A stretch of 39,102 nt of DNA from positions 1 to 39,102 of the IMG/VR virus record IMGVR_UViG_3300028025_003168; one strand, 5' to 3'. Shown piece by piece: positions 954-9,722 of the stretch (its first letter is position 1; every line of letters begins with the position of its first letter). Source of the DNA: a virus. A program made the translations under genes and the position numbers. The notes below the pieces were generated by a model. It did no database searches. It saw only the letters and a program-made list of their open reading frames with translations, and was not told the origin of the DNA.

Positions 954-1017
954 TTGCTTCCTCATTTCTGTTGGCGAGCCAGCCAACTTATTTACCAGCG
1001 GTCTTGCTGATATATCA

Positions 1018-1040
1018 AGTATGACAGTAACCACCGACAA
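1018..1040 (-). promoter_or_regulatory. shared-motif promoter (copy 2)
   Basis: Spacer TTGTCGGTGGTTACTGT (17 nt) and -10 CATACT. The leader to the ATG at 953 is about 55 nt and contains a small TTGGC/GCCAA hairpin. Confidence 0.6.
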
Positions 1041-1072
1041 ACGCAAGTCCAAAACGGCTTTTCGGGGCTATT

Positions 1073-1088
1073 GTTATCATTTCGTAAC
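1073..1088. promoter_or_regulatory. paired RTAAC half-sites, 11-bp spacing
   Basis: GTTAT, 6 nt, GTAAC, about 35 bp upstream of promoter copy 2. Confidence 0.4.
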
Positions 1089-1104
1089 CTAATTTTTTGG
1101 GGCA

Positions 1105-1120
1105 GGGGGGGGCGCCGCCC
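1105..1120. repeat. GGCGCC palindrome unit b
   Basis: G-run followed by GGCGCCGCCC immediately after the stop codon of the GP88-like gene; candidate GC hairpin. Confidence 0.4.
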
Positions 1121-1124
1121 TCCG

Positions 1125-1847: not shown

Positions 1848-1853
1848 AGTCTT

Positions 1854-1877
1854 ACTATACATTGACCCACCGACATT
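1854..1877 (-). promoter_or_regulatory. shared-motif promoter (copy 3), leaderless
   Basis: Spacer ATGTCGGTGGGTCAATG, -10 TATAGT, 6 nt (AAGACT), ATG at 1847. Confidence 0.7.
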
Positions 1878-1902
1878 GAGGGTAATTTTCGCATATCTTA
1901 AT

Positions 1903-1918
1903 GTAAAGGTTTGATAAC
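1903..1918. promoter_or_regulatory. paired RTAAC-like half-sites (degenerate)
   Basis: GTAAA, 6 nt, ATAAC upstream of promoter copy 3; one half-site has a mismatch. Confidence 0.3.
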
Positions 1919-1923
1919 AGATC

Positions 1924-1938
1924 GGCGCCCCCGAAGGG
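1924..1938. repeat. GGCGCC palindrome unit c
   Basis: On the - strand CCCTTCGGGGGCGCC: a UUCG-capped mini-hairpin adjoins the palindrome, after the stop of the 164-aa gene. Confidence 0.4.
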
Positions 1939-1970
1939 TTGTGCGTTATCGAGTCGCACCCCTCGTCACG

Positions 1971-2465
1971 CTACCAGGAAGCCTGATAGGTGAAACTCAC
2001 GCTGTCATCACCGAATGTCTGAATCAGAACACGGTCTAACTCTTTAGCGGTATCCTCTAAGTCTGACCAATACCACTCGTCATACTCAGTTGAGCCAAAG
2101 AAGAAGCCTGACGAAGTAGGCAGAGCCACAGGTGCTTTCTCACGGTGAATGAGAACATCCTTTACCAAGTCACGCAAGTCCTCTAAGTCCTTGCGACGGA
2201 CATAGATAGGCTGACACTCGTCTACACCGTTGGCGAGATTGTCCACAAACCATTGGTGGATGCAGTTCACCTTACGCCAATAGATAGCGGTAGCAGTTAC
2301 AGAAACGCTGTAATTGTTCTCCTCGCTAATGAAGTTTTTGAGTCCAGCAGTCTCAAGAATAGCCAAGCCCTCTGGCACATCCTTTTTGACGATGTCGCCA
2401 TTCTCCTGAATCCAATCAGAAGTACGAACGTTCTTGCGAACCTCAAGATACATATCCAAGCCCAT
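1971..2465 (-). CDS. phage protein of the MGLDMYL type
   Basis: 164 aa. The N terminus MGLDMYLEVRK, the central IYWRKVNCIHQWFVDNLANG and the late aromatic block FFFGSTEYDEWYWSDLEDT are features I associate with a hypothetical protein widespread in phages. Function unknown. The start has a good ribosome site (AAAGGA, 8-9 nt upstream). Transcribed from the promoter at 2491-2513 with a leader of about 20 nt. Confidence 0.8.
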   Translation of the reverse strand: MGLDMYLEVRKNVRTSDWIQENGDIVKKDVPEGLAILETAGLKNFISEENNYSVSVTATAIYWRKVNCIHQWFVDNLANGVDECQPIYVRRKDLEDLRDLVKDVLIHREKAPVALPTSSGFFFGSTEYDEWYWSDLEDTAKELDRVLIQTFGDDSVSFTYQASW

Positions 2466-2490
2466 TAGTTTATCCTTTCGTTTCTTTTTA

Positions 2491-2513
2491 TCTTATCAGT
2501 ACCCACCGACATT
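2491..2513 (-). promoter_or_regulatory. shared-motif promoter (copy 4)
   Basis: Spacer ATGTCGGTGGGTACTGA, -10 TAAGAT. The stop codon of the upstream 35-aa gene lies in its first bases. Confidence 0.65.
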
Positions 2514-2619
2514 ACTTGCAGTTGTGGAACACATAACTGCTTGCGATATCGGTAAAGCCACACTCAACACATTCGCACATCATGCCTGCACGAGTCGGGG
2601 TAATTATCATTTTCGTCAT
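2512..2619 (-). CDS. 35-aa cysteine-rich microprotein
   Basis: MTKMIITPTRAGMMCECVEC continues to GFTD...HNCK. C-x-C-x2-C plus a late H-x-C could bind one zinc ion. Below the usual length cut-off for gene callers, but strongly framed: the -10 TATAGT is followed by 6 nt and the ATG at 2619, and the stop overlaps the next promoter. Function unknown. Confidence 0.65.
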   Translation of the reverse strand: MTKMIITPTRAGMMCECVECGFTDIASSYVFHNCK

Positions 2620-2625
2620 AAAGTA

Positions 2626-2649
2626 ACTATAACAGCACCCACCGACACT
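2626..2649 (-). promoter_or_regulatory. shared-motif promoter (copy 5), leaderless
   Basis: Spacer GTGTCGGTGGGTGCTGT, -10 TATAGT, 6 nt (TACTTT), ATG at 2619. Confidence 0.7.
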
Positions 2650-2664
2650 GGGGGGCGCCGCCCC
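2650..2664. repeat. GGCGCC palindrome unit d
   Basis: GGGGGGCGCCGCCCC directly after the stop of the 43-aa membrane gene and touching promoter copy 5. Stem of about 6 G-C pairs; candidate terminator. Confidence 0.45.
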
Positions 2665-2666
2665 TC

Positions 2667-2798
2667 CTAGTCGTCAGCTATCTGATCAACCCTGTTCCCA
2701 AACCGATACCCTAATGTCTCAAACCAATAAGACACATTGGCTATCAGGGGGAATAGAATAATGAATGTCAGGATGCCAAGTGCAACGAATAGCACCAT
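2667..2798 (-). CDS. 43-aa single-span membrane microprotein
   Basis: MVLFVALGILTFIILFPLIA is one N-terminal transmembrane segment, followed by a short soluble tail ending VDQIADD. Its ATG overlaps the stop of the 68-aa gene (TAATG), so it is translationally coupled. Last gene of a four-gene unit. Confidence 0.65.
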   Translation of the reverse strand: MVLFVALGILTFIILFPLIANVSYWFETLGYRFGNRVDQIADD

Positions 2799-3004
2799 TA
2801 TGGAATCACCTCATACCTAGGCTTAGAGTATTCGCCATTGACTTTGATAGAATCCTCAAACATTCTGAATCCTGTTTGCCAAGTGTCTGCTTCGTCTACG
2901 AATAGGTCAAGTGCTTCCAAGATATCGCTACCCTCGCTAGGGTCAAACTCTTTGGGTAGCCAGACATAAGTTGTTAGCTCAGTAGTGATTTTATAGTTAG
3001 GCAT
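2798..3004 (-). CDS. 68-aa small acidic phage protein
   Basis: Begins MPNYKITTELTTYVWLPKEF, then a helical acidic middle (EGSDILEALDLFVDEADTW) and a beta-like end. The start follows AAGGAGT. Third gene of the unit from 3283. Function not recognised. Confidence 0.75.
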   Translation of the reverse strand: MPNYKITTELTTYVWLPKEFDPSEGSDILEALDLFVDEADTWQTGFRMFEDSIKVNGEYSKPRYEVIP

Positions 3005-3012
3005 TTTACTCC

Positions 3013-3156
3013 TTAGAGAAACTCGAATGGGTCACGGTCTTGGAAGATATCCTCGAATGCCTGCATAGAATAGGATTGTGGATTCTCATACCAGTCTCGC
3101 AATGCCTCTAGGATTTCCATACCCTGCTCGTCATTTTCCCAATTACTCTTAGCCAT
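3013..3156 (-). CDS. 47-aa small acidic phage protein
   Basis: MAKSNWENDEQGMEILEALR..., ending RDPFEFL; aromatic and acidic. The start at 3156 is chosen over the longer reading because GGAGG sits 7 nt upstream. Overlaps the end of the upstream 44-aa gene by 8 nt in another frame. Function unknown. Confidence 0.7.
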   Translation of the reverse strand: MAKSNWENDEQGMEILEALRDWYENPQSYSMQAFEDIFQDRDPFEFL

Positions 3157-3283
3157 TTGATACCTCCGTGTATTTGACGATAAACTCACGAACACTTGGA
3201 ATGTGGTCGAAGTTTGCTTCCTTATTTAGTGCCATATCCAACAGGTCACCAGCTACTATTGCGAGAAACTCTTTTTCTGTCAT
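3149..3283 (-). CDS. 44-aa leaderless phage microprotein
   Basis: MTEKEFLAIVAGDLLDMALN..., ending KYTEVSNG. First gene of the four-gene unit. The ATG lies 6 nt after the -10 CATACT. Amphipathic helix likely; function unknown. Confidence 0.65.
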   Translation of the reverse strand: MTEKEFLAIVAGDLLDMALNKEANFDHIPSVREFIVKYTEVSNG

Positions 3284-3289
3284 ATAGAT

Positions 3290-3313
3290 AGTATGACATA
3301 GGGGTACGACAGT
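3290..3313 (-). promoter_or_regulatory. shared-motif promoter (copy 6, degenerate), leaderless
   Basis: The spacer keeps TGTC and the 17-nt length but loses GGTGG (CTGTCGTACCCCTATGT). -10 CATACT, 6 nt, ATG at 3283. Confidence 0.55.
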
Positions 3314-3344
3314 GTGCAAGTTTAGGAGTGGTTTTGAACACTTC

Positions 3345-3360
3345 GTAACTGATTTGTTAT
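3345..3360. promoter_or_regulatory. paired RTAAC half-sites, 11-bp spacing
   Basis: GTAAC, 6 nt, GTTAT, upstream of promoter copy 6. Confidence 0.4.
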
Positions 3361-3367
3361 AAGGTTT

Positions 3368-3378
3368 GGGCGGCGCCC
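3368..3378. repeat. GGCGCC palindrome unit e
   Basis: GGGCGGCGCCC just beyond the 3' end of tRNA-Asn; likely end of the tRNA transcript. Confidence 0.4.
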
Positions 3379-3386
3379 TCAGATCC

Positions 3387-3461
3387 TGGCTCCCCCTCTT
3401 GGATTCGAACCAAGAACCTACGAGTTAACAGCTCGTTGCTCTGCCGTTGAGCTAAAGGGGA
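3387..3461 (-). tRNA. tRNA-Asn (GUU), CCA encoded
   Basis: The acceptor arms pair (UCCCCUU with AGGGGGA), the D stem, anticodon stem ACGAG/CTCGT and T arm GGTTCGAATC are intact, and the anticodon loop CTGTTAA carries GTT. Discriminator G is followed by encoded CCA. It lies one nucleotide downstream of tRNA-Asp in the same transcript. Confidence 0.95.
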
Positions 3462-3462
3462 T

Positions 3463-3539
3463 TGGCGACTCTGACCAGACTTGAACTGGCGACCCCTACC
3501 GTGACAGGGTAGTGCTCTAACCAACTGAGCTACAGAGCC
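3463..3539 (-). tRNA. tRNA-Asp (GUC), CCA encoded
   Basis: 77 nt. The acceptor GGCUCUG pairs with CAGAGUC (one G-U). Anticodon stem CTACC/GGTAG, loop CTGTCAC with anticodon GTC. T loop GTTCAAGTC. Discriminator G then CCA is encoded. Starts 7 nt after the stop of the 51-aa gene, so it is probably processed from that mRNA. Confidence 0.95.
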
Positions 3540-3545
3540 ATTGTT

Positions 3546-3701
3546 TTAGTTATTGTAGGCGTAAGCCCAATCAGGCACTTCCGTCTGGACATTGACCTCA
3601 AAGTAGTCAAAGTCACAAAGACCAGCAAACTCTTTTGCCAACTCTTCAGATGCGAACACACCCTCGTAGTGATTACAGCAAGAGTTTATTACAACCCACA
3701 T
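3546..3701 (-). CDS. 51-aa small phage protein
   Basis: MWVVINSCCNHYEGVFASEE..., ending DWAYAYNN. A CC pair followed by H near the N terminus, then a helix and a beta-rich acidic end. Its ATG directly follows the stop of the 53-aa gene (TAA ATG). Followed by the two tRNAs. Function not recognised. Confidence 0.7.
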   Translation of the reverse strand: MWVVINSCCNHYEGVFASEELAKEFAGLCDFDYFEVNVQTEVPDWAYAYNN

Positions 3702-3863
3702 TTATGCATACTCCTTGATTGCTTGAGCCTTGACTGCTGAACGAGTCCTCTGACGGTTAGGTCGGTTGTCGTGAGTGGTAGCCGCATTAGAAGAACGCAG
3801 ACCACGCATAGCAATAATGTATGCGGTGTTTTGAATCTTTTGAGGCTTTGCTTTCTTTTTCAT
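3702..3863 (-). CDS. 53-aa strongly basic leaderless protein
   Basis: MKKKAKPQKIQNTAYIIAMR..., rich in K and R, ending KAQAIKEYA. The ATG is 6 nt after the -10 TAATCT. The charge suggests nucleic-acid or ribosome binding, but no family is recognised. First gene of the tRNA-containing unit. Confidence 0.65.
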   Translation of the reverse strand: MKKKAKPQKIQNTAYIIAMRGLRSSNAATTHDNRPNRQRTRSAVKAQAIKEYA

Positions 3864-3870
3864 AATACAA

Positions 3871-3893
3871 GATTAGCACAGACCACCGACATT
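3871..3893 (-). promoter_or_regulatory. shared-motif promoter (copy 7), leaderless
   Basis: Spacer ATGTCGGTGGTCTGTGC, -10 TAATCT, 6 nt (TGTATT), ATG at 3863. Confidence 0.65.
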
Positions 3894-3917
3894 TTCAGGC
3901 GATTTCGTAAGGTTTTC

Positions 3918-3933
3918 GTAACAGAATGATAAC
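3918..3933. promoter_or_regulatory. paired RTAAC half-sites, 11-bp spacing
   Basis: GTAAC, 6 nt, ATAAC as direct repeats, upstream of promoter copy 7. Confidence 0.4.
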
Positions 3934-3938
3934 GAATC

Positions 3939-3956
3939 GGGGCGCCGATCCACCCC
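3939..3956. repeat. GGCGCC palindrome unit f
   Basis: CGGGGCGCCGATCCACCCC after the stop of the 42-aa membrane gene; candidate hairpin. Confidence 0.35.
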
Positions 3957-4085
3957 CTAGAAGGGTGGTCGGTTTAGCAATGCCTCATATTTGGATTCTT
4001 TGTATTTGGCATACAGGTACAGAATCACGACGGTATCAAACACAATAACGCCTAGCATTACAGCGAACAATGGGAACAGGCTCAT
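3957..4085 (-). CDS. 42-aa single-span membrane microprotein
   Basis: MSLFPLFAVMLGVIVFDTVV is a membrane segment continuing to ILYLYAKYKES, followed by a short basic and proline tail. The start overlaps the stop of the 63-aa gene (TAATG) after a GAGGGA ribosome site. Confidence 0.65.
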   Translation of the reverse strand: MSLFPLFAVMLGVIVFDTVVILYLYAKYKESKYEALLNRPPF

Positions 4086-4276
4086 TAGTGTCCCTCCTGG
4101 TGGTTGTAGCAAGCGTCAATGAAAATACTGCGAGAGAATCGTGGATTGTCTGCCTCAAACATATTGGCAAACTGTTCTACCAGTTCATAGCATTCTTCTT
4201 CATACTTGATGGGCATATCACCGATAAAGTTATCAAGAATCTCAGCGGTTGATACATAGTCTTTGCGTGTCATCAT
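4085..4276 (-). CDS. 62/63-aa small acidic phage protein
   Basis: MMTRKDYVSTAEILDNFIGD..., then a helical acidic middle and a His-rich end (CYNHQEGH). Two adjacent ATGs (4276, 4273); AAAGGA lies upstream of both. Transcribed from the promoter at 4308-4331. Function unknown. Confidence 0.75.
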   Translation of the reverse strand: MMTRKDYVSTAEILDNFIGDMPIKYEEECYELVEQFANMFEADNPRFSRSIFIDACYNHQEGH

Positions 4277-4307
4277 TTTAGTGTGTCCTTTTCGTTGTTG
4301 TTTGTTT

Positions 4308-4331
4308 AGTTTAGCAGTACCCTACGACACT
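4308..4331 (-). promoter_or_regulatory. shared-motif promoter (copy 8)
   Basis: Spacer GTGTCGTAGGGTACTGC, -10 TAAACT. Overlaps the stop of the upstream 56-aa gene. Confidence 0.6.
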
Positions 4332-4500
4332 ACGAGCCGTAGACGGTCAGAAGTGTGCGGTAGCCATTGGCACGACCCTCGCACCACGAAGCCATTCCCT
4401 CTATACCAGCCTCACGGTACATCAGAACATCAGCCTCGTTTTGCTCGATAAGCCACTCAAGCGACTCGACTGGGATAGTAATCGTATTTTCGTTTTCCAT
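4330..4500 (-). CDS. 56-aa small phage protein
   Basis: MENENTITIPVESLEWLIEQ..., ending NGYRTLLTVYGS; helical, acidic. The start follows AAAGGCAAACT. Sole gene between promoters 4524 and 4308; the stop TAG lies in the next promoter. Function unknown. Confidence 0.7.
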   Translation of the reverse strand: MENENTITIPVESLEWLIEQNEADVLMYREAGIEGMASWCEGRANGYRTLLTVYGS

Positions 4501-4523
4501 AGTTTGCCTTTCGTTGTAATACT

Positions 4524-4547
4524 AGTGTAGCGTGACCCACTGACATT
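4524..4547 (-). promoter_or_regulatory. shared-motif promoter (copy 9)
   Basis: Spacer ATGTCAGTGGGTCACGC, -10 TACACT, then a leader of about 18 nt with an AAAGG site. Confidence 0.65.
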
Positions 4548-4572
4548 CAGGGGCATTTAGAGGGTGTTTCTT

Positions 4573-4588
4573 ATAACAAATTGGTAAC
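4573..4588. promoter_or_regulatory. paired RTAAC half-sites, 11-bp spacing
   Basis: ATAAC, 6 nt, GTAAC. The whole 16-19 bp closely matches 11013-11030. Confidence 0.4.
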
Positions 4589-4592
4589 AGTC

Positions 4593-4607
4593 GGGGGCGG
4601 CGCCCCC
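4593..4607. repeat. GGCGCC palindrome unit g
   Basis: GGGGGCGGCGCCCCC directly after the stop of the 73-aa gene: a strong GC stem, candidate terminator. Confidence 0.45.
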
Positions 4608-4609
4608 TC

Positions 4610-4831
4610 CTAGCAGTAGCCCTCGACCATAGTTCCCTCTTCTGCTAATGAGTCTACATAGTCAGCAAAGCCACAGCGATATGCGATTGGGTCACACTCT
4701 TTGAGTACCGTTGATGGGTAGAACTCTGAGTAACCAATAGACACGATAGGGTAGCACTCGTCTAGTAGTGCGTCGTAGTTGGCTTTCGCTTCTTCTTCGG
4801 ACAGGATTTCGAGGGTATCGTATTCGTTCAT
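4610..4831 (-). CDS. 73-aa acidic leaderless phage protein
   Basis: MNEYDTLEILSEEEAKANYD..., with DECYPIVSIG and CDPIAYRCGFADYVDS. Looks like a small hypothetical protein seen in several phages; function unknown. The ATG is exactly 6 nt after the -10 TATAGT, and no ribosome site is present. Confidence 0.75.
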   Translation of the reverse strand: MNEYDTLEILSEEEAKANYDALLDECYPIVSIGYSEFYPSTVLKECDPIAYRCGFADYVDSLAEEGTMVEGYC

Positions 4832-4837
4832 ATAATG

Positions 4838-4861
4838 ACTATAACACGAGCCACCGACAGT
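4838..4861 (-). promoter_or_regulatory. shared-motif promoter (copy 10), leaderless
   Basis: Spacer CTGTCGGTGGCTCGTGT, -10 TATAGT, 6 nt (CATTAT), ATG at 4831. The -35 position (CGATCA) is poor. Confidence 0.65.
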
Positions 4862-4865
4862 GATC

Positions 4866-4877
4866 GGCGCCCCCCCC
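4866..4877. repeat. GGCGCC palindrome unit h
   Basis: GGCGCCCCCCCC abutting the stop codon of the 12-aa micropeptide. Confidence 0.35.
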
Positions 4878-4915
4878 TAGTGACCACAGCAAGGGAAGTC
4901 TTCACACTTACACAT
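4877..4915 (-). CDS. 12-aa cysteine-rich micropeptide MCKCEDFPCCGH
   Basis: The reading frame ATG...TAG encodes MCKCEDFPCCGH: four Cys and one His in 12 residues. Its ATG overlaps the end of the 77-aa gene (ATGTGTAA), so coupled translation is possible. I recall similar short PCCGH-type peptides in actinophages but cannot verify this. A metal-binding peptide is a plausible guess. Confidence 0.45.
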   Translation of the reverse strand: MCKCEDFPCCGH

Positions 4916-5141
4916 AGTCGTCACCTGCGTAGAAACCGTAGTCCTCGTCAGTGCCCCAGCCAGCAGAGGCAAGAGCATCGGCATCCATCCAGCCCTCTGA
5001 GTCAAACTCAGTACGCTCGAATGGGTTGCCACCAGCAATCTCGAAGTAGGCATCTGCCTCCTCAAGAGTCCACTCGTTGCCGAGGTCGTCTGTCCAAGCA
5101 ACGATTTCGTTGTCTTCACCGAAGATAGGGTCGAAGTTCAT
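4908..5141 (-). CDS. 77-aa acidic phage protein
   Basis: MNFDPIFGEDNEIVAWTDDL..., very acidic, ending DYGFYAGDDYV. The start at 5141 is preferred to upstream codons because GAAAGGAAA precedes it; the longer reading would run through the promoter. High negative charge is a feature of DNA-mimic proteins, but this is only suggestive. Confidence 0.75.
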   Translation of the reverse strand: MNFDPIFGEDNEIVAWTDDLGNEWTLEEADAYFEIAGGNPFERTEFDSEGWMDADALASAGWGTDEDYGFYAGDDYV

Positions 5142-5170
5142 AGGTGATTTCCTTTCGTGATGTAATACAA

Positions 5171-5193
5171 GATTAGCACTAGCCACCGACATT
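5171..5193 (-). promoter_or_regulatory. shared-motif promoter (copy 11)
   Basis: Spacer ATGTCGGTGGCTAGTGC, -10 TAATCT; leader of about 25 nt with AAAGGA. Confidence 0.65.
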
Positions 5194-5249
5194 CGGGACA
5201 AAATCTCAGGCGTTTTTAATGCATATCGTAAATGGGTCGCCAACGGATC

Positions 5250-5260
5250 GGCGCCGCCCC
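5250..5260. repeat. GGCGCC palindrome unit i
   Basis: GGCGCCGCCCC between the 43-aa gene and promoter copy 11. Confidence 0.35.
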
Positions 5261-5277
5261 TGCGAGGGTATGTCAAG

Positions 5278-5291
5278 CGACACGCCGATTA
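5278..5291. repeat. CGACACGCCGATAA-type repeat 1
   Basis: CGACACGCCGATTA, preceded by TGTCAAG; overlaps the stop of the 43-aa gene. Confidence 0.6.
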
Positions 5292-5420
5292 CGGATAAAA
5301 AGCAGCCCAATACAGCAAGATAAGCCAATACGCACCAACCAACACAGCACTAGCGATTGCTAGTTGAGTCAGGAAGCGACAGATGCCACGAACTACATAG
5401 TAGGCTTTAGAGTGTTCCAT
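5289..5420 (-). CDS. 43-aa single-span membrane microprotein
   Basis: MEHSKAYYVVRGICRFLTQL then a long hydrophobic stretch (AIASAVLVGAYWLILLYW) and AAFYP. Starts immediately after the stop of the 31-aa gene (TAA ATG). Confidence 0.6.
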   Translation of the reverse strand: MEHSKAYYVVRGICRFLTQLAIASAVLVGAYWLILLYWAAFYP

Positions 5421-5516
5421 TTATCGGCTCATTTCCATTAGGATAATCGGGAACCAGTACCCAGCGAAGGCAATGGCGAGAGCAATCGCTCCCCAGATGA
5501 AGGTGTGAGAATACAT
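5421..5516 (-). CDS. 31-aa single-span membrane microprotein
   Basis: MYSHTFIWGAIALAIAFAGY continues WFPIILMEMSR: essentially one membrane helix. The start follows ACGAAAGGAAAACT. First gene of a two-gene membrane-peptide unit. Confidence 0.6.
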   Translation of the reverse strand: MYSHTFIWGAIALAIAFAGYWFPIILMEMSR

Positions 5517-5537
5517 AGTTTTCCTTTCGTTGATTTG

Positions 5538-5561
5538 AGTATAGCGTGACCCACCGACACT
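5538..5561 (-). promoter_or_regulatory. shared-motif promoter (copy 12)
   Basis: Spacer GTGTCGGTGGGTCACGC, -10 TATACT; leader of about 20 nt with AAAGGA. Confidence 0.7.
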
Positions 5562-5730
5562 AGTCGGCTATTGGGAAGATGTCCAGAATCGGGAAGGCAG
5601 TTTCCAATTCGTCACAGACAATAGCGTCGTGGCACTGTTGGCAGACAGCCACAAATTCCAATTCGGCAATGTCGGTGTCGTACTGAAGTACCTCAAGAGC
5701 GAGACGGTGGTCGCAGATTTCACATTCCAT
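5560..5730 (-). CDS. 56-aa zinc-ribbon-like microprotein, MEC family
   Basis: MECEICDHRLALEVLQYDTD..., with C-x2-C at residues 3-6 and C-x2-C (CQQC) near residue 30: a four-cysteine zinc ribbon. Paralogue of 6390-6536 and 7876-8016 by its MEC-x2-C start and spacing. The start at 5730 follows AAAGGAAAACTAAA. The stop overlaps promoter copy 12. Confidence 0.75.
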   Translation of the reverse strand: MECEICDHRLALEVLQYDTDIAELEFVAVCQQCHDAIVCDELETAFPILDIFPIAD

Positions 5731-5756
5731 TTTAGTTTTCCTTTCGTTTGATTTGA

Positions 5757-5779
5757 TTCTAACAGCACCCACCGACACT
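5757..5779 (-). promoter_or_regulatory. shared-motif promoter (copy 13)
   Basis: Spacer GTGTCGGTGGGTGCTGT, -10 TAGAAT; overlaps the stop of the 36-aa gene. Confidence 0.7.
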
Positions 5780-5888
5780 AGTCGGTTTCGTCTGCCATCA
5801 GAGCGACCTGAAGACCGAGCAACTGCTCAACCGTCATAGTCTCAATGTCCTGTACACCCTCAGCGGTGATGATTTTCATAAATCCCAT
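5778..5888 (-). CDS. 36-aa phage microprotein
   Basis: MGFMKIITAEGVQDIETMTV..., ending LMADETD; a single amphipathic helix is likely. A very good ribosome site (AAGGAGAG) precedes the ATG. Function unknown. Confidence 0.65.
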   Translation of the reverse strand: MGFMKIITAEGVQDIETMTVEQLLGLQVALMADETD

Positions 5889-5915
5889 TTGGACTCTCCT
5901 TTCTTCGTTACCCTC

Positions 5916-5939
5916 ACTCTAGCAGTACCCACCGACATT
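5916..5939 (-). promoter_or_regulatory. shared-motif promoter (copy 14)
   Basis: Spacer ATGTCGGTGGGTACTGC, -10 TAGAGT. A CGGCGTGTCG repeat lies just upstream (5948-5961). Confidence 0.7.
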
Positions 5940-5947
5940 CAAGGGTG

Positions 5948-5961
5948 CGACACGCCGATTA
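5948..5961. repeat. CGACACGCCGATAA-type repeat 2
   Basis: CGACACGCCGATTA next to promoter copy 14, with an A/T-rich run beside it. Confidence 0.6.
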
Positions 5962-5984
5962 CGTAAAAAATTTTTGGGAGTAAT

Positions 5985-6014
5985 TTATCCACATACGTAA
6001 AGAAGTTATCCACA
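5985..6014 (+). promoter_or_regulatory. two DnaA boxes
   Basis: Exact TTATCCACA at 5985-5993 and 6006-6014, 21 bp apart (two helical turns). Confidence 0.7.
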
Positions 6015-6015
6015 G

Positions 6016-6035
6016 GCGGGGCGCCGATTTTTTCG
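6016..6035. repeat. GGCGCC palindrome unit j
   Basis: GGCGGGGCGCCG then a GCCGA/TCGGC mini-hairpin with a T5 loop. Directly follows a DnaA box. Confidence 0.4.
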
Positions 6036-6047
6036 GCATTGTCAAAC

Positions 6048-6060
6048 CGACACGCCATAT
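6048..6060. repeat. CGACACGCCGATAA-type repeat 3 (degenerate)
   Basis: CGACACGCCATAT, preceded by TGTCAAAC. Confidence 0.5.
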
Positions 6061-6078
6061 ATGTCAAAATTGGAATAT

Positions 6079-6094
6079 CTTCGGGATCCCGAAG
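6079..6094 (-). terminator. perfect palindrome CTTCGGGATCCCGAAG
   Basis: 16-bp perfect palindrome about 10 nt after the stop of the 45-aa gene; candidate transcription end. No T tract follows. Confidence 0.4.
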
Positions 6095-6104
6095 GGTAGT
6101 TTAC

Positions 6105-6242
6105 CTATGAGGCAAACTCACCCTCAAGACGCATAAGGTAGAAACGCTCAGAGATGAGACAAGGCTTGCAAATAAGCCACTCGCTCTCAGCGGATACGAA
6201 CACAGTCTCTACAGACTTTTCGCAAACTTCACAGATTTTCAT
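6105..6242 (-). CDS. 45-aa zinc-ribbon-like microprotein
   Basis: MKICEVCEKSVETVFVSAES..., with C-x2-C at 4-7 and C-x2-C (CKPC) near residue 25, then a helix ending LRL-type (FYLMRLEGEFAS). Its ribosome site AAAGGAAAACT lies inside the 3' end of the 33-aa gene, so the two are coupled. Confidence 0.7.
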   Translation of the reverse strand: MKICEVCEKSVETVFVSAESEWLICKPCLISERFYLMRLEGEFAS

Positions 6243-6244
6243 AT

Positions 6245-6346
6245 TTAGTTTTCCTTTCTTTGTTCACACTTTTGAGTGTGGTTAGTGTACTCCCACGGAG
6301 TCCAAATGTAGGACAATCCGCAGTATGTGCATTTGTGATATTTCAT
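6245..6346 (-). CDS. 33-aa zinc-finger-like microprotein
   Basis: MKYHKCTYCGLSYIWTPWEY..., ending HTQKCEQRKEN. C-x2-C and H-x3-C fit one classical zinc finger. The start follows AAAGGCAAACTA. First gene of a two-gene zinc unit. Confidence 0.65.
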   Translation of the reverse strand: MKYHKCTYCGLSYIWTPWEYTNHTQKCEQRKEN

Positions 6347-6366
6347 TAGTTTGCCTTTCTTGATTT

Positions 6367-6391
6367 GATTCTAGCACTACCCACCGACATT
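6367..6391 (-). promoter_or_regulatory. shared-motif promoter (copy 15)
   Basis: Spacer ATGTCGGTGGGTAGTGC, -10 TAGAAT; overlaps the stop of the 48-aa gene. Confidence 0.7.
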
Positions 6392-6536
6392 AGACGAGGG
6401 CGGTATCCAATTCTGCTACGACATAGTGACCAACAAGGCTAGCCTCGCAACGGTCACACACTACAGTCTCAACAGAGTTCATGAACAGCATGACGGCTAC
6501 AGTAGCCTCATAGTATTCGCAGAATGTACATTCCAT
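6390..6536 (-). CDS. 48-aa zinc-ribbon-like microprotein, MEC family
   Basis: MECTFCEYYEATVAVMLFMN..., with C-x2-C at 3-6 and CDRC near residue 27. Paralogue of the 56-aa protein at 5560. The start at 6536 follows AAAGGAAAACTAAA. The frame stays open upstream and contains two copies of an MSLANK-encoding leader; those upstream starts lack a good ribosome site. Confidence 0.75.
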   Translation of the reverse strand: MECTFCEYYEATVAVMLFMNSVETVVCDRCEASLVGHYVVAELDTALV

Positions 6537-6628
6537 TTTAGTTTTCCTTTCTTTAGGGGATTTATTTGCTAGGCTCATACGGTTTCCCGTCTTATTTGCT
6601 AGGCTCACTCCCTTGTGCTTACAAAGTA

Positions 6629-6652
6629 AGACTATCAGTACCCACCGACATT
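6629..6652 (-). promoter_or_regulatory. shared-motif promoter (copy 16)
   Basis: Spacer ATGTCGGTGGGTACTGA, -10 TAGTCT; leader of about 85 nt containing the duplicated GAGCCTAGCAAATAA. Confidence 0.6.
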
Positions 6653-6667
6653 GGAACGCAAATATGC

Positions 6668-6752
6668 CCTATTTTCTAGGGGTTTTACCCTATTCTTAAG
6701 TAAACATAAGTATAAAATCTATCCACAGAGTTATCCACAGGGGGCGCCGCCC
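6668..6752. repeat. long direct repeat, copy A
   Basis: About 85 bp nearly identical to 7745-7830: a TTTTACCCTATTCTTAAG block, two DnaA-type boxes and GGCGCC. Non-coding. Confidence 0.85.
6719..6739 (+). promoter_or_regulatory. two DnaA boxes
   Basis: CTATCCACA (one mismatch) at 6719-6727 and exact TTATCCACA at 6731-6739. Confidence 0.65.
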
Positions 6753-6755
6753 CCC
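6740..6755. repeat. GGCGCC palindrome unit k
   Basis: GGGGGCGCCGCCCCCC: strong GC stem directly after a DnaA box and near the stop of the endonuclease gene. Confidence 0.45.
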
Positions 6756-6777
6756 TCCGACATTTGTCAAATCCTGG

Positions 6778-7137
6778 CTAGGCGTTTCGCAAATATTCCA
6801 TTGCCCTAGCGATACGGTCTAGGTCGTCTTGGAACACACCCAAGCCACGGTTACAGTTGTGGCAGATGTGTCCACGGAAAGCACCTGTACCGTGGTCGTG
6901 GTCTACTACCCACACAGAGGCGTTGCCACCTGTTCCCTTTAGTTCATCTTCTGACTTTAGGCAGATAGGGCAGGTGTGTCCCTGTTCGGGGTAGCCAAAC
7001 TCTTTACGCAGAGCACGACGCTCACTAGACAACTTGCGACCACAGTCACGGCACTCAGGTCGTAGGTACTTGCCACCAGAGGCAGGGGAGAACGAAGCGT
7101 GAGGGAGTGACTCTTGGCACTTGGAGCAGGTTTTCAT
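6778..7137 (-). CDS. recombination endonuclease VII-like HNH nuclease
   Basis: 119 aa. The N-terminal zinc ribbon has C-x2-C at 4-7 and a second C-x2-C (CRDC) near 29. The nuclease core has CPIC, then [20 protein letters not shown], which is the hallmark of the endonuclease VII (HNH, beta-beta-alpha-metal) family. Such enzymes resolve branched DNA or act as phage homing-type nucleases. The ATG lies 6 nt after TAAAGT of a degenerate promoter (7143-7167), so it is probably leaderless. Confidence 0.9.
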
Positions 7138-7142
7138 AGTTT

Positions 7143-7167
7143 CACTTTACTGTAGGGGTCTGACATT
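7143..7167 (-). promoter_or_regulatory. shared-motif promoter (copy 17, degenerate), leaderless
   Basis: Spacer ATGTCAGACCCCTACAG, -10 TAAAGT, 6 nt (GAAACT), ATG at 7137. Confidence 0.5.
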
Positions 7168-7175
7168 CTGCTAGG

Positions 7176-7189
7176 CGACACGCCGATAA
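7176..7189. repeat. CGACACGCCGATAA repeat 4
   Basis: Exact copy, upstream of promoter copy 17, beside a T-rich run. Confidence 0.65.
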
Positions 7190-7230
7190 ATCATAAAAAA
7201 GTTTGAGGCATTTTTTTGGATCTACGTAAT

Positions 7231-7249
7231 TGTGCATAAGTTATCCACA
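7231..7249. promoter_or_regulatory. inverted pair of DnaA boxes
   Basis: TGTGCATAA (reverse box, 7231-7239) and TTATCCACA (7241-7249), back to back. Confidence 0.7.
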
Positions 7250-7250
7250 G

Positions 7251-7269
7251 GCGGCGCCGATTTTTTCGG
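7251..7269. repeat. GGCGCC palindrome unit l
   Basis: GCGGCGCCGATTTTTTCGG directly after the DnaA pair. Confidence 0.4.
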
Positions 7270-7280
7270 GTATGTCAAGC

Positions 7281-7294
7281 CGACACGCCGATAA
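7281..7294. repeat. CGACACGCCGATAA repeat 5
   Basis: Exact copy preceded by TGTCAAGC; followed by an A run. Confidence 0.65.
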
Positions 7295-7341
7295 ACTGAA
7301 AAAATCTTTATGGGAGATCTCACAGGGTAAGGACAAAGACT

Positions 7342-7542
7342 CTACAGAATCTCTATCTTGTTACCAAGTGAGACATAGGCGGTCTTTCCACCTACGAAGG
7401 TAATGAAGGCGGTATCGCCATTCAATCCCTTTACAGACTCAATCACACCAGTGTAGTGAAACACTGGTCCGAATGGTCGGGGCTTGTTGCTAAACGCAAC
7501 ACGCTTTCCGACTAGGGCTTTTACTTTTTGAGTGAAGGTCAT
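7342..7542 (-). CDS. 66-aa small SH3-like protein
   Basis: MTFTQKVKALVGKRVAFSNK..., then YTGVIESVKGLNGD and FVGGKTAYVSLG. Alternating strands with G-x-I-x-S-x2-G-x-NG, then a GGK turn, match the 92-aa protein at 8481 (TGRIKSATGTNGS, FTNGKSAKLTL). A small beta-barrel is inferred. The start at 7542 follows GGAAGTG; an upstream in-frame start encodes an MSLARANK extension. Confidence 0.7.
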   Translation of the reverse strand: MTFTQKVKALVGKRVAFSNKPRPFGPVFHYTGVIESVKGLNGDTAFITFVGGKTAYVSLGNKIEIL

Positions 7543-7619
7543 ATTGACACTTCCTTTCTTTTTAGTGAGAGTCTTATTTGCTCTTGCGAGGCTCATACTC
7601 TCTGTTTGTTTATATTACT

Positions 7620-7648
7620 ATCTAATCACACATTTTTCGATTTGTCAA
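7620..7648 (-). promoter_or_regulatory. consensus-like sigma-70 promoter without the shared spacer
   Basis: -35 TTGACA (7643-7648), 17-nt spacer, -10 TTAGAT (7620-7625). The spacer lacks TGTCGGTGG, unlike the 24 other left-arm promoters. The -35 falls inside the end of the 21-aa frame. Confidence 0.6.
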
Positions 7649-7710
7649 GTCGACACGCCGTATATGTGAAAAAATCTTTTCACTTTTTTGGTGTTTCTTT
7701 CTTGATTCAT
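7645..7710 (-). CDS. possible 21-aa leaderless micropeptide
   Basis: MNQERNTKKVKRFFHIYGVS-T, basic. Supported only by the -10 TACACT placed 6 nt before its ATG. Its 3' end is shared with the CGACACGCC repeat and with the next promoter's -35, so it may be non-coding. Confidence 0.35.
   Translation of the reverse strand: MNQERNTKKVKRFFHIYGVST
7651..7664. repeat. CGACACGCCGATAA repeat 6 (degenerate)
   Basis: CGACACGCCGTATA; upstream of the promoter at 7620-7648. Confidence 0.5.
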
Positions 7711-7715
7711 ACCTT

Positions 7716-7740
7716 CAGTGTAACAGTACCCACTGACATT
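7716..7740 (-). promoter_or_regulatory. shared-motif promoter (copy 18)
   Basis: Spacer ATGTCAGTGGGTACTGT, -10 TACACT, 6 nt, ATG at 7710. Confidence 0.65.
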
Positions 7741-7744
7741 ATGA

Positions 7745-7830
7745 CCTATTTTTATAGGGGTTTTACCCTATTCTTAAGTAAACACAAGTATAAAATCTAT
7801 CCACAGAGTTATCCACAGGCGGCGCCGCCC
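7745..7830. repeat. long direct repeat, copy B
   Basis: Second copy of the 6668-6752 block, with a few substitutions and one inserted base. Confidence 0.85.
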
Positions 7831-7849
7831 TGTGCATAAGTTATCCACA
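7798..7849. promoter_or_regulatory. cluster of four DnaA boxes around GGCGCC
   Basis: CTATCCACA 7798-7806, TTATCCACA 7809-7817, TGTGCATAA (reverse) 7831-7839, TTATCCACA 7841-7849. Confidence 0.7.
7818..7829. repeat. GGCGCC palindrome unit m
   Basis: Perfect 12-bp palindrome GGCGGCGCCGCC between DnaA boxes. Confidence 0.5.
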
Positions 7850-7875
7850 GTTTGATGATCTCGGCGGTACTGTGG

Positions 7876-8016
7876 TTAGCCTCTCACATCTGCCTCTGCC
7901 ATCACTAACCAAGACTCACCAAGAGCCTCAGAGCAATTAGCACAGACAGAGAATTGGTATGCACCATCGCTAACCAATTCGGTAGCCAGACGGTAGTCAC
8001 AAAGTTCGCATTCCAT
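7876..8016 (-). CDS. 46-aa zinc-ribbon-like microprotein, MEC family
   Basis: MECELCDYRLATELVSDGAY..., with C-x2-C at 3-6 and CANC near residue 25. Paralogue of 5560 and 6390. The ATG overlaps the stop of the 48-aa membrane gene (TAATG), so the pair is translationally coupled. Confidence 0.7.
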   Translation of the reverse strand: MECELCDYRLATELVSDGAYQFSVCANCSEALGESWLVMAEADVRG

Positions 8017-8162
8017 TACTTAGCACCTTTCTTGTTGTAGTAGATACCAACAGCGACCATAGCCATAAGGCACAGGAACACAAACCCACAAAGGCTACTA
8101 CCAATAACCAGAGTCATCTGGTTCAGGTATTCGATTCGTTCATCTGACATTTTGTTATCCAT
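8016..8162 (-). CDS. 48-aa single-span membrane microprotein
   Basis: MDNKMSDERIEYLNQMTLVI followed by a membrane span (GSSLCGFVFLCLMAMVAVGI) and YYNKKGAK, so the C terminus is probably cytoplasmic. The alternative start at 8150 would give MSDERIEY. No strong ribosome site distinguishes them. Confidence 0.65.
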   Translation of the reverse strand: MDNKMSDERIEYLNQMTLVIGSSLCGFVFLCLMAMVAVGIYYNKKGAK

Positions 8163-8182
8163 TCTTTTTGTTTGTTAGTTAC

Positions 8183-8206
8183 AGTATGACACTAGCCACC
8201 GACATT
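8183..8206 (-). promoter_or_regulatory. shared-motif promoter (copy 19)
   Basis: Spacer ATGTCGGTGGCTAGTGT, -10 CATACT; overlaps the stop of the 38-aa gene. Confidence 0.65.
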
Positions 8207-8321
8207 AGAACAAACGGTTAGGCTTGTTCTTTCCCTTGACCGTGATAACGATGAAGACGATGCTACCTACGATTACGAAGAGCGAGGTGATTACTGTTGC
8301 AATTGCTGTGATGTTTTCCAT
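8205..8321 (-). CDS. 38-aa single-span membrane microprotein, copy 1
   Basis: MENITAIATVITSLFVIVGS... then IVFIVITVKGKNKPNRLF. One membrane helix and a basic KNKPN tail. Same length and pattern as 8812-8928. The ATG is 6 nt after the -10 TTAGAT. Confidence 0.7.
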   Translation of the reverse strand: MENITAIATVITSLFVIVGSIVFIVITVKGKNKPNRLF

Positions 8322-8327
8322 ACCTTT

Positions 8328-8351
8328 ATCTAATCAGTAGCCACTGACATT
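8328..8351 (-). promoter_or_regulatory. shared-motif promoter (copy 20), leaderless
   Basis: -35 TTGCAA, spacer ATGTCAGTGGCTACTGA, -10 TTAGAT, 6 nt, ATG at 8321. Confidence 0.7.
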
Positions 8352-8358
8352 TGCAACG

Positions 8359-8372
8359 CGACACGCCGATAA
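8359..8372. repeat. CGACACGCCGATAA repeat 7
   Basis: Exact copy just upstream of the -35 of promoter copy 20. Confidence 0.65.
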
Positions 8373-8384
8373 GCGTAAAAATAC

Positions 8385-8414
8385 TTATCCACATATTAGT
8401 CAAAGTTATCCACA
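8385..8414 (+). promoter_or_regulatory. two DnaA boxes
   Basis: Exact TTATCCACA at 8385-8393 and 8406-8414, again 21 bp apart. Confidence 0.7.
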
Positions 8415-8432
8415 GGCGGCGCCGATTTTTTG
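8415..8432. repeat. GGCGCC palindrome unit n
   Basis: GGCGGCGCCGATTTTTTG following a DnaA box. Confidence 0.4.
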
Positions 8433-8446
8433 GGGGTATGTCAAAC

Positions 8447-8460
8447 CGACACGCCGATAA
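8447..8460. repeat. CGACACGCCGATAA repeat 8
   Basis: Exact copy preceded by TGTCAAAC, close to the stop of the 92-aa gene. Confidence 0.65.
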
Positions 8461-8480
8461 GTGGGATCTCCACCTATAGG

Positions 8481-8759
8481 CTAGTCAGTGAACTCACTCA
8501 GTACCATTTCATCGGATACCGATTCGGCAACCTCTAGTACTGACTGTAGTGTAAGTTTGGCAGACTTGCCATTGGTGAATGTTACTACACACTCACTACC
8601 GTTAGTACCAGTAGCAGACTTGATTCTACCAGTAGACACAATCAACTCAGGGTAGCGTGAACGCCAATCCCTAGTACGGATAGTTACCAACTTACCAATG
8701 TTGTTGTTAGCAATCATTAGAGGAGTAGTAGTAGCAATTCCAATTTGTATCTTTTTCAT
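8481..8759 (-). CDS. 92-aa small SH3-like protein
   Basis: MKKIQIGIATTTPLMIANNN..., then GKLVTIRTRDW, STGRIKSATGTNGS, VTFTNGKSAKLTL, and an acidic tail. The barrel part matches the 66-aa protein at 7342. The start follows AGGAAATATAGAAA, in a leader nearly identical to that of the 28-aa gene at 9113. Confidence 0.75.
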   Translation of the reverse strand: MKKIQIGIATTTPLMIANNNIGKLVTIRTRDWRSRYPELIVSTGRIKSATGTNGSECVVTFTNGKSAKLTLQSVLEVAESVSDEMVLSEFTD

Positions 8760-8789
8760 TTTCTATATTTCCTATTCTTTATTACTTAG

Positions 8790-8813
8790 AGTGTATCAGG
8801 GGGTACTGACATT
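8790..8813 (-). promoter_or_regulatory. shared-motif promoter (copy 21)
   Basis: Spacer ATGTCAGTACCCCCTGA (GGTGG lost), -10 TACACT; overlaps the stop of the 38-aa gene copy 2. Confidence 0.6.
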
Positions 8814-8928
8814 AGAACAAGCCATTAGGCTTGTTGTTGTCTTTGACCGTGATGATGATGAAGATTACTCCACCAACGATTACGAATACTGAGGTAGCGA
8901 TTGATGCGATTGCGATTACTGTTTCCAT
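8812..8928 (-). CDS. 38-aa single-span membrane microprotein, copy 2
   Basis: METVIAIASIATSVFVIVGG... then VIFIIITVKDNNKPNGLF. Aligns without gaps with the 38-aa protein at 8205, and the flanking DNA is also similar, so the whole unit was duplicated. The ATG is 6 nt after TTAGAT. Confidence 0.7.
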   Translation of the reverse strand: METVIAIASIATSVFVIVGGVIFIIITVKDNNKPNGLF

Positions 8929-8934
8929 ATCTAT

Positions 8935-8958
8935 ATCTAATCAGCAACCACTGACATT
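8935..8958 (-). promoter_or_regulatory. shared-motif promoter (copy 22), leaderless
   Basis: -35 TTGTAA, spacer ATGTCAGTGGTTGCTGA, -10 TTAGAT, 6 nt, ATG at 8928. Confidence 0.7.
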
Positions 8959-8965
8959 TACAAAC

Positions 8966-8979
8966 CGACACGCCGATAA
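8966..8979. repeat. CGACACGCCGATAA repeat 9
   Basis: Exact copy just upstream of the -35 of promoter copy 22. Confidence 0.65.
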
Positions 8980-9030
8980 ACGCAAAAGTTTTTTGGGGAA
9001 ATTTTGGATCTTCTTATAAGCCATACAGGG

Positions 9031-9081
9031 TGTGTATAAGTTATCCACAGGCGGCGCCAAATTGTGGATAAGTTGTCCACA
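9031..9081. promoter_or_regulatory. cluster of four DnaA boxes around GGCGCC
   Basis: TGTGTATAA (reverse) 9031-9039, TTATCCACA 9041-9049, TGTGGATAA (reverse, exact) 9063-9071, TTGTCCACA (one mismatch) 9073-9081: two back-to-back inverted pairs. Confidence 0.7.
9050..9058. repeat. GGCGCC palindrome unit o
   Basis: GGCGGCGCC between the two inverted DnaA-box pairs; the rightmost copy seen. Confidence 0.4.
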
Positions 9082-9094
9082 GGTTTGGGGATCT

Positions 9095-9137
9095 CTGCTA
9101 CTGGCAGACTGGTTAGCGACCTGACCACCAGTAGCAG
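9095..9137 (-). terminator. stem-loop overlapping the end of the 28-aa gene
   Basis: Ten-base perfect arms CTGCTACTGG (9095-9104) and CCAGTAGCAG (9128-9137). One arm is coding, the other just after the stop. Possible transcription end. Confidence 0.4.
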
Positions 9138-9199
9138 AATGCAATGTATGCAAATGGAGCCATTGACAGTACTGCGAGAATGATTACTACGATTTCCAT
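9113..9199 (-). CDS. 28-aa single-span membrane micropeptide
   Basis: MEIVVIILAVLSMAPFAYIA then FCYWWSGR: one hydrophobic helix with an aromatic, basic end. The start follows AGGAAATAGAAAA. Confidence 0.55.
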   Translation of the reverse strand: MEIVVIILAVLSMAPFAYIAFCYWWSGR

Positions 9200-9231
9200 T
9201 TTTCTATTTCCTATTCTTTGTTGTTAGTTAG

Positions 9232-9255
9232 AGTGTATCAGTAGTGACTGACACT
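9232..9255 (-). promoter_or_regulatory. shared-motif promoter (copy 23)
   Basis: Spacer GTGTCAGTCACTACTGA, -10 TACACT; leader of about 25 nt with AGGAAA. Confidence 0.6.
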
Positions 9256-9259
9256 TAGG

Positions 9260-9376
9260 TTAGGCAATGCCAGTGATAAGGTGAGCAAGTGCTGAACGGA
9301 AAGTCTTGTGACCAACCTTAGTGGAAGTTCCAACCTTGACCCAGTAGTAGCCTTCTGACTTTGTGATTCCGAACAT
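9260..9376 (-). CDS. 38-aa basic phage microprotein
   Basis: MFGITKSEGYYWVKVGTSTK..., then FRSALAHLITGIA. Beta-rich first half, short helix at the end. Weak ribosome site (GAGAAAC). Leader of about 40 nt from promoter copy 24. Function unknown. Confidence 0.6.
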   Translation of the reverse strand: MFGITKSEGYYWVKVGTSTKVGHKTFRSALAHLITGIA

Positions 9377-9423
9377 TTTGTTTCTCTTTTCTTTGTTGTT
9401 GTTTGTGTTTCTCTCTATGTATA

Positions 9424-9448
9424 TATCTAATCAGTAGCCACCGACATT
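9424..9448 (-). promoter_or_regulatory. shared-motif promoter (copy 24)
   Basis: -35 TTGCTA, spacer ATGTCGGTGGCTACTGA, -10 TTAGAT. Rightmost copy seen. Confidence 0.7.
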
Positions 9449-9455
9449 AGCAATG

Positions 9456-9469
9456 CGACACGCCGATAA
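9456..9469. repeat. CGACACGCCGATAA repeat 10
   Basis: Exact copy upstream of promoter copy 24, followed by an A/T run. After this the repeat family stops. Confidence 0.65.
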
Positions 9470-9641
9470 GTGAAAAAATAAATAAGAATTTTTTTACTAG
9501 GGGTGGGCAGTAGTGTGCGGACTAATTTGGTATGCTTTACGCTATAAAGTGTGCATCGTTCACAAATACAAAATATTCAGATTTTTGTCAAATCGAAAAT
9601 AAAAAATTTTTCAGATTTTCCAGGGTATCAAAATACGCAGA
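9470..9641. other. AT-rich non-coding boundary segment
   Basis: No convincing gene. Contains long A and T runs (around 9480-9500 and 9600-9612). It separates the repeat-rich left arm from an operon that uses a different promoter type. Confidence 0.5.
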
Positions 9642-9722
9642 TCAAACCAACCCTGATAGATAAACAATCAAAGCAAAGATACCTATGATACCTAATAGAC
9701 CAGAGAAGATATCTCCGATCAT
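9642..9722 (-). CDS. 26-aa single-span membrane micropeptide
   Basis: MIGDIFSGLLGIIGIFALIV then YLSGLV. The ATG overlaps the TGA of the 57-aa gene (ATGA), a typical coupled operon junction. Confidence 0.55.
   Translation of the reverse strand: MIGDIFSGLLGIIGIFALIVYLSGLV

Follow-up and report, generated by a model that had tools for sequence, protein, structure and literature searches.

Introduction

Phages are known to use the host initiator protein DnaA at a few loci, e.g., those of lambda and of the plasmid-like P1. Here we analyze a stretch of virus DNA, the complete IMG/VR record IMGVR_UViG_3300028025_003168 of 39,102 bases (hereafter, the window; such records often are fragments), in which the sequence TTATCCACA, a candidate DnaA box, recurs in the gaps between small leftward genes. 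To the reading that these are host DnaA boxes which control small leftward phage operons in cis, we give an even chance. The closest counterpart is the lambda origin region, where host DnaA binds boxes near promoters and affects transcription near the origin, according to PMC3985674 and papers cited there. Our reading of the window likewise places host DnaA boxes near phage promoters; however, in lambda a single locus carries a couple of boxes, whereas in the window the boxes occupy six gaps upstream of separate small operons and form arrays in helical register.

Bacterial origins (oriC with its basal unwinding system) share with the window the same box and tandem boxes one helical turn apart, but in the window no trio-like motif follows the box, and most of the arrays adjoin GC-rich blocks. 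Clusters of DnaA boxes outside the origin, at datA and other loci of Escherichia coli, can bind much DnaA (PMC5835720). In contrast to the window, these titrating loci are chromosomal, and datA also needs IHF and acts via hydrolysis of DnaA-ATP. The injection stop signal of phage T5 resembles the window in combining DnaA boxes with repeats and palindromes in the left arm of a phage, but it is a single non-coding block with few boxes, one of them exact. Elsewhere in T5 (L383:6121-6202), the gap at 6.1 kb that separates the divergent pre-early genes has two exact boxes; its location is comparable to that of the strand switch in the window. The dispersed operators of actinophages, such as the L5 stoperators and the start-associated sequences of Cluster K, are short repeats occupying many intergenic gaps near gene starts; they are phage-specific, whereas the repeated site of the window appears to be the host DnaA box. 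No paper on DnaA boxes in actinobacteriophages was found, which, given the partial coverage of the literature, is a weak sign of novelty.

Candidate DnaA Boxes in the Window

Sixteen boxes lie between positions 5985 and 9081 (Table 1): ten exact copies of TTATCCACA, three copies of the variant TTATNCACA on the minus strand (7231, 7831, 9031), and three boxes with one mismatch (CTATCCACA at 6719 and 7797, TTGTCCACA at 9073). All coordinates and spacings given in the first-pass annotation of this DNA were reproduced, and its estimate that chance would yield almost no boxes held: 100 dinucleotide shuffles of the whole 39 kb gave 0.50 exact 9-mers (sd 0.76, maximum 3) versus ten observed. The ten exact boxes are spread over six intergenic gaps, and the remaining 36 kb of the window has none. 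The density elsewhere in the genome, which the annotation had proposed to compare, is not equal, judging by the closest relative (see below). Called genes contain none of the 16 boxes, while about 44% of positions in this stretch are non-coding (probability for all ten exact boxes approximately 3e-4). The statement that boxes are only intergenic thus stands for these 16, and fails for an additional TTATGCACA at 9967, which falls within a called gene. The box zone adjoins the strand switch.

Table 1. Box clusters, promoter motifs and GGCGCC blocks of the window, and the oriC-like element of related phages. Positions are those of the window unless a locus is named.
Feature	Position	Strand	Description
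Cluster 1	5985..6014	+	TTATCCACA at 5985 and 6006, spacing 21 bp; upstream of the 36-aa gene 5778-5888 (-)
Cluster 2	6719..6739	+	CTATCCACA at 6719, TTATCCACA at 6731, spacing 12 bp; upstream of gene 6390-6536 (-)
Cluster 3	7231..7249	both	Back-to-back TTATGCACA 7231 (-) and TTATCCACA 7241 (+); upstream of endonuclease VII-like gene 6778-7137 (-)
Cluster 4	7797..7849	both	CTATCCACA 7797 and TTATCCACA 7809 (+), TTATGCACA 7831 (-), TTATCCACA 7841 (+); upstream of gene 7342-7542 (-)
Cluster 5	8385..8414	+	TTATCCACA at 8385 and 8406, spacing 21 bp; upstream of gene 8205-8321 (-)
Cluster 6	9031..9081	both	Back-to-back pairs 9031 (-)/9041 (+) and 9063 (-)/9073 (+) flanking GGCGCC, exact TTATCCACA at 9041 and 9063; upstream of gene 8812-8928 (-); same layout in relative L005, 1087-1138
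Promoter motif TGTCGGTGG, cluster 1	5929..5937	-	-10-like TAGAGT at 5916-5921
Promoter motif TGTCGGTGG, cluster 2	6642..6650	-	-10-like TAGTCT
Weak promoter motif TGTCAGACC, cluster 3	7157..7165	-	-10-like TAAAGT
Promoter motif TGTCAGTGG, cluster 4	7730..7738	-	-10-like TACACT
Promoter motif TGTCAGTGG, cluster 5	8341..8349	-	-10-like TAGATA, -35-like TTGCAA
Promoter motif TGTCAGTGG, cluster 6	8948..8956	-	-10-like TAGATA, -35-like TTGTAA
GGCGCC	6020..6025		Separates cluster 1 from the end of the preceding gene
GGCGCC	6743..6748		Core of GC-rich hairpin beside cluster 2; folding z -3.1
GGCGCC	7253..7258		Beside cluster 3; no stable hairpin
GGCGCC	7821..7826		Within cluster 4, center of inverted repeat; z -3.1
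GGCGCC	8418..8423		Beside cluster 5; no stable hairpin
GGCGCC	9053..9058		Within cluster 6, center of inverted repeat; z -4.8
oriC-like non-coding element	L252:3450-4000 (G005 23.45-24.0 kb), L262:3200-3700, L246:19150-19550		Box array, TTACTGA (variant in L246), AT-rich tract, AAACC repeats

Boxes in Related Phages and in the Likely Host

Among 205 loci of related phages, fetched mostly with three window proteins, 98 contain at least two exact boxes. The enrichment is specific: in 131 non-redundant loci, the 298 copies of TTATCCACA exceed the expected 23.8 by a factor of 12.5, while each of its one-mismatch variants is at most 2.3-fold enriched. In the closest relative (G001, 92 kb, with a 99% identical endonuclease VII), seven out of eight exact boxes fall within the matching 3.6 kb, and the eighth is part of another element at 19.3 kb.

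Same-strand boxes are grouped at spacings of 11–12, 21–24, 31–34, 41–45, and 52–57 bp. The best period is 10.65 bp (R 0.81, n = 112, from 105 loci under a stricter overlap limit); if only spacings of at least 18 bp are retained, dropping the frequent pairs at 11–12 bp, it is 10.95 bp (R 0.75, n = 69). Rayleigh p-values are descriptive only, since the period was selected as the best of many and the pairs depend on one another. The boxes are thus spaced in helical register (about 10.7–11 bp), as in cooperative DnaA arrays.

We considered the surroundings of dnaA in 30 genomes of actinobacteria that are small (mostly 1.2–1.8 Mb) and low in GC. The genomes belong to the same order as one weakly linked bin of actinobacteria and, judging by size, G+C content, and habitat, are tentatively assigned to Nanopelagicales; isolated phages of this order exist (PMC10202952). 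The dnaA regions contain 96 copies of TTATCCACA in 91 kb versus nine of TTGTCCACA, so that the window 9-mer is identical to the DnaA-box consensus of the putative host. Moreover, both the dnaA-region boxes and the phage boxes form pairs at 10–12 bp and have a preceding G. A direct scan of genome contigs for the host was abandoned: it gave two matches only, one to a cyanobacterium-labelled bin and one, weak, to an actinobacterial bin; either might be a phage contig binned by mistake.

These similarities bear on the possibility that TTATCCACA is recognized by a phage-encoded protein or a host protein other than DnaA. Binding by DnaA is predicted from sequence, and phage regulators with many dispersed sites exist; however, the box, the pairing distance, and the preceding G are those of the likely host order, and an identical preference of another protein would be a coincidence, hence we hold such a binder to be very unlikely. 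A phage-encoded DnaA was not recognized either, as PF08299 (domain IV) was absent from 16 whole relatives.

The assumption that boxes in the Streptomyces relatives follow the host consensus was dropped, as the two isolates considered are barely enriched, mostly in TTATCCACA. A separate observation concerns Streptomyces phage Daubenski (L245, record 122283-122315), in which two exact copies of TTATCCACA lie 24 bp from each other in inverted orientation, boxes being few otherwise.

Putative Promoter Motif and Box–Promoter Phasing

In gene direction, a box-bearing gap consists of a stop codon, a GGCGCC block, the boxes, a promoter motif, and the next gene. Most small genes are preceded by the motif TGTC(G/A)GTGG, flanked by a -35-like and a -10-like hexamer (Table 1), and the window boxes lie 44–125 bp upstream of the motif. 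The distances from boxes to the motif are 56/77 bp in cluster 1, 77/89 in cluster 2, 67/79/101/111 in cluster 4, and 44/65 in cluster 5; at homologous sites in three relatives, they are 66/78, 45/67, and 66/78/100/110 bp. All these sites share one common phase on a 10.9 bp turn. According to the alignments, the box–promoter interval changes by an indel of 11 bp between clusters 1 and 5 and of 10 bp between clusters 2 and 4, the intervening sequence having diverged; in the relative L006, the box–promoter sequence has diverged as well, its length being unchanged. Upstream of orthologues of gene 5778, a box pair is found at 97–126 bp in three genomes, with differing box spacing, and the genes at 292-5516 lack boxes in all relatives compared. 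The number of boxes varies among close relatives (about 10, 7, and 4).

Two side observations concern the same region. The TGTC(G/A)GTGG repeats at 124-9446 (-), along with TTATCGGCGTGTCG upstream of several small genes, probably constitute a phage-wide operator. Comparison of window positions 5500-9700 with 30–33 kb of G001 shows small genes and box-bearing gaps shuffled among relatives, similar to recombination cassettes.

These data suggest that host DnaA would assemble cooperatively on the arrays and contact the promoter or bend it, and that the small operons would thereby respond to the amount or the nucleotide state of host DnaA. As the phage DNA multiplies, the same sites would draw DnaA off the host origin as a side effect. 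Such titration is a likely consequence of the control sites, because exact TTATCCACA occurs only 5–15 times in the whole chromosome of each likely host (mostly 1.2–1.5 Mb), several copies being near dnaA, similar to the ten in 3.1 kb of the window.

The latter numbers, together with the observation that DnaA boxes on plasmids titrate DnaA in E. coli (PMC5835720), would also fit arrays whose main role is to titrate host DnaA, blocking initiation on the host chromosome during phage replication, with the proximity to promoters incidental. However, promoter phasing would be unneeded in a pure decoy, for which one compact array would suffice, and it is the position relative to the promoter, not the number of boxes, that is conserved in close relatives. 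We favor regulation because the arrays stand in a fixed relation to promoters, the gene 5778 orthologues retain the box pair, and the box number varies, and consider a pure decoy unlikely, albeit the foremost of the other explanations.

Several observations weigh against regulation. Clusters 3 and 6, which consist of back-to-back pairs, deviate from the common phase by about half a turn, as does one site in L009; the in-phase clusters come from about two homologous families and do not form six independent points; the helical phase was noticed after the fact; and promoters were assigned by the sequence motif only. Two Streptomyces isolates are little enriched, having three and eight TTRTCCACA in about 130 kb versus one and two in reversed controls. 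Finally, the support consists of sequence comparison, and it is from this comparison that we infer DnaA binding, any activating or repressing effect, the timing of operon expression, and the host identity. It might be speculated that the two phase classes correspond to activation and repression.

oriC-Like Element of Related Phages

Many relatives have several boxes in register followed, after 6–9 bp, by TTACTGA and then by an AT-rich tract and repeats (Table 1). A scan of the collection for this pattern yielded at least 120 stretches, and among 16 whole records it is present in exactly one copy in eight, versus none in the reversed control. The likely host has a similar arrangement of box, spacer, and trios (TTACTACTACTAC); in several likely host genomes, the box is followed by GGTTACTACTACTAC, a motif of the DnaA-trio kind described for bacterial origins (PMC8287927). 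In the phage motif, T is kept in the middle of successive triplets, but they do not form a clean trio repeat, and we therefore refer to the element as oriC-like only. An alignment of two such stretches was uninformative due to mismatched orientation. The closest relative has a variant at 19.3 kb, in which TGACTGAATATATAA follows one perfect and two imperfect boxes; the window start is equivalent to 24.4 kb of that genome, about 5 kb to the right, and hence the window may lack the element simply because it starts too far right.

The first-pass annotation had offered three functions for the boxes, of which a dispersed replication origin is now the least supported. DnaA bound to the arrays could open the phage DNA at one or several origins in the box zone: helical arrays of DnaA boxes are typical of origins, and both the strand switch and a minimum of cumulative GC skew are close to the arrays, in the window as well as in its closest relative. 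However, the skew tracks the gene strand, and the arrays are in six separate gaps, unlike the single locus per genome of an oriC-type origin. In the 36 bp that follow each TTATNCACA box of the window, there is neither TTACT(G/A), nor TACTGA, nor a run of four trio-like triplets, and no window array has TTACTGA within that distance; mostly, GC-rich DNA follows. Because of the separate single-copy oriC-like element in relatives and the absence of a trio-like motif after window boxes, we consider an origin here improbable. The second function, a decoy, is plausible numerically, given the 5–15 boxes of likely host genomes, the titration itself being a prediction. The third, DnaA-responsive control, is made more likely by box–promoter phasing in four out of six clusters and by the one-turn indels, and tempered by the two clusters half a turn off and by shared ancestry.

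GGCGCC Blocks and Hairpins

The window contains 15 copies of GGCGCC against 1.9 expected, i.e., about eightfold more, approximately one per longer gap from 188 to 9053. It had been proposed that each box cluster is tied to this palindrome, but nine copies (188-5250) are in gaps without any box, and therefore GGCGCC is a marker of gaps rather than of boxes; for the same reason, it was discarded as an obligatory box partner. The composite TTATCCACAGGCGGCGCC occurs exactly four times, and the boxes at 7809-7839 and 9031-9081 are inverted about GGCGCC.

The latter boxes form the outer arms of strong hairpins at 7821 and 9053, as would be expected if boxes were by-products of GGCGCC-based RNA hairpins, such as terminators. 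However, clusters 1, 3, and 5 have no significant hairpin (z from -1.1 to 0.3), most boxes are unpaired across GGCGCC, and many relatives carry boxes without GGCGCC, which, together with the nine box-free blocks, makes this origin of the boxes highly improbable. Accordingly, boxes as hairpin arms were rejected, the hairpins being significant at three out of six clusters only and the cluster 2 box lying outside the stem core.

An equally remote explanation is an injection stop signal of the T5 type, in which DnaA boxes and palindromes pause DNA entry. Such signals have been described as containing repeats, palindromes, and DnaA boxes (PMC13250531), but the T5 signal occupies one block of 1 kb and has one exact box only, whereas the window boxes are distributed over six gaps between genes.

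In most of the nine box-free GGCGCC gaps (188-5250), the position taken by boxes further right is occupied by paired GTAAC/GTTAC or GTTAT half-sites, separated by about one helical turn; the same half-site pairs are present in L005, once adjoining a box pair. An apparently unrelated contig with 73% G+C (L007:3973-4003) has GTTATCCACAGAGTTATCCACAGGCGGCGCC, almost identical to window 7796-7826; it was set aside, as its sharing of the composite looks like chance or convergence.

Phage Identity and Gene Layout

The minus strand of the window at about 0.3–10 kb encodes small genes and two tRNA genes, and the plus strand at about 10.5–36 kb, structural and other phage genes, with matches in PHROGs to families of portal, head maturation protease, capsid, tail fiber, endolysin, and glycosyltransferase. 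The best relatives of the window are 66–128 kb long. The nearest portal and capsid proteins (47% identity over 99% and 42% over 76%, respectively) belong to Streptomyces phages of about 120–133 kb. In the one of them whose annotation was read over this part, the Stanwilliamsviridae phage Blueeyedbeauty, a left block with tRNAs and small genes on the minus strand precedes the structural genes, as in the window. Portal and capsid homology and the similar gene order mark the window as a fragment of a Stanwilliamsviridae-related actinophage, in the sense of likeness and not of formal family membership. A WhiB gene is found in 12 out of 15 relatives versus one out of 14 control genomes (actinobacterium Corynebacterium glutamicum). 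Given the Stanwilliamsviridae-like proteins and gene order and WhiB in the relatives, we regard the window as derived from an actinophage, probably with a freshwater host. Megablast of the left 12 kb of the window found no close isolates.

Implications

Taking regulation by host DnaA as the preferred reading of the window arrays, a broader scheme, less likely than not, can be tentatively sketched, in which a large family of freshwater actinophages is subject to the host initiator: the single-copy oriC-like element would recruit DnaA for replication, the arrays on small-gene promoters of the window lineage would constitute a DnaA-controlled regulon, and both expression and replication would track host initiation while DnaA is drawn from the host origin. 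If true, the host initiator would be a signal or a target of the phage, via dispersed promoter-phased arrays and the oriC-like element of the relatives, and the system would allow for a direct test of whether a virus can halt host replication by soaking up DnaA.

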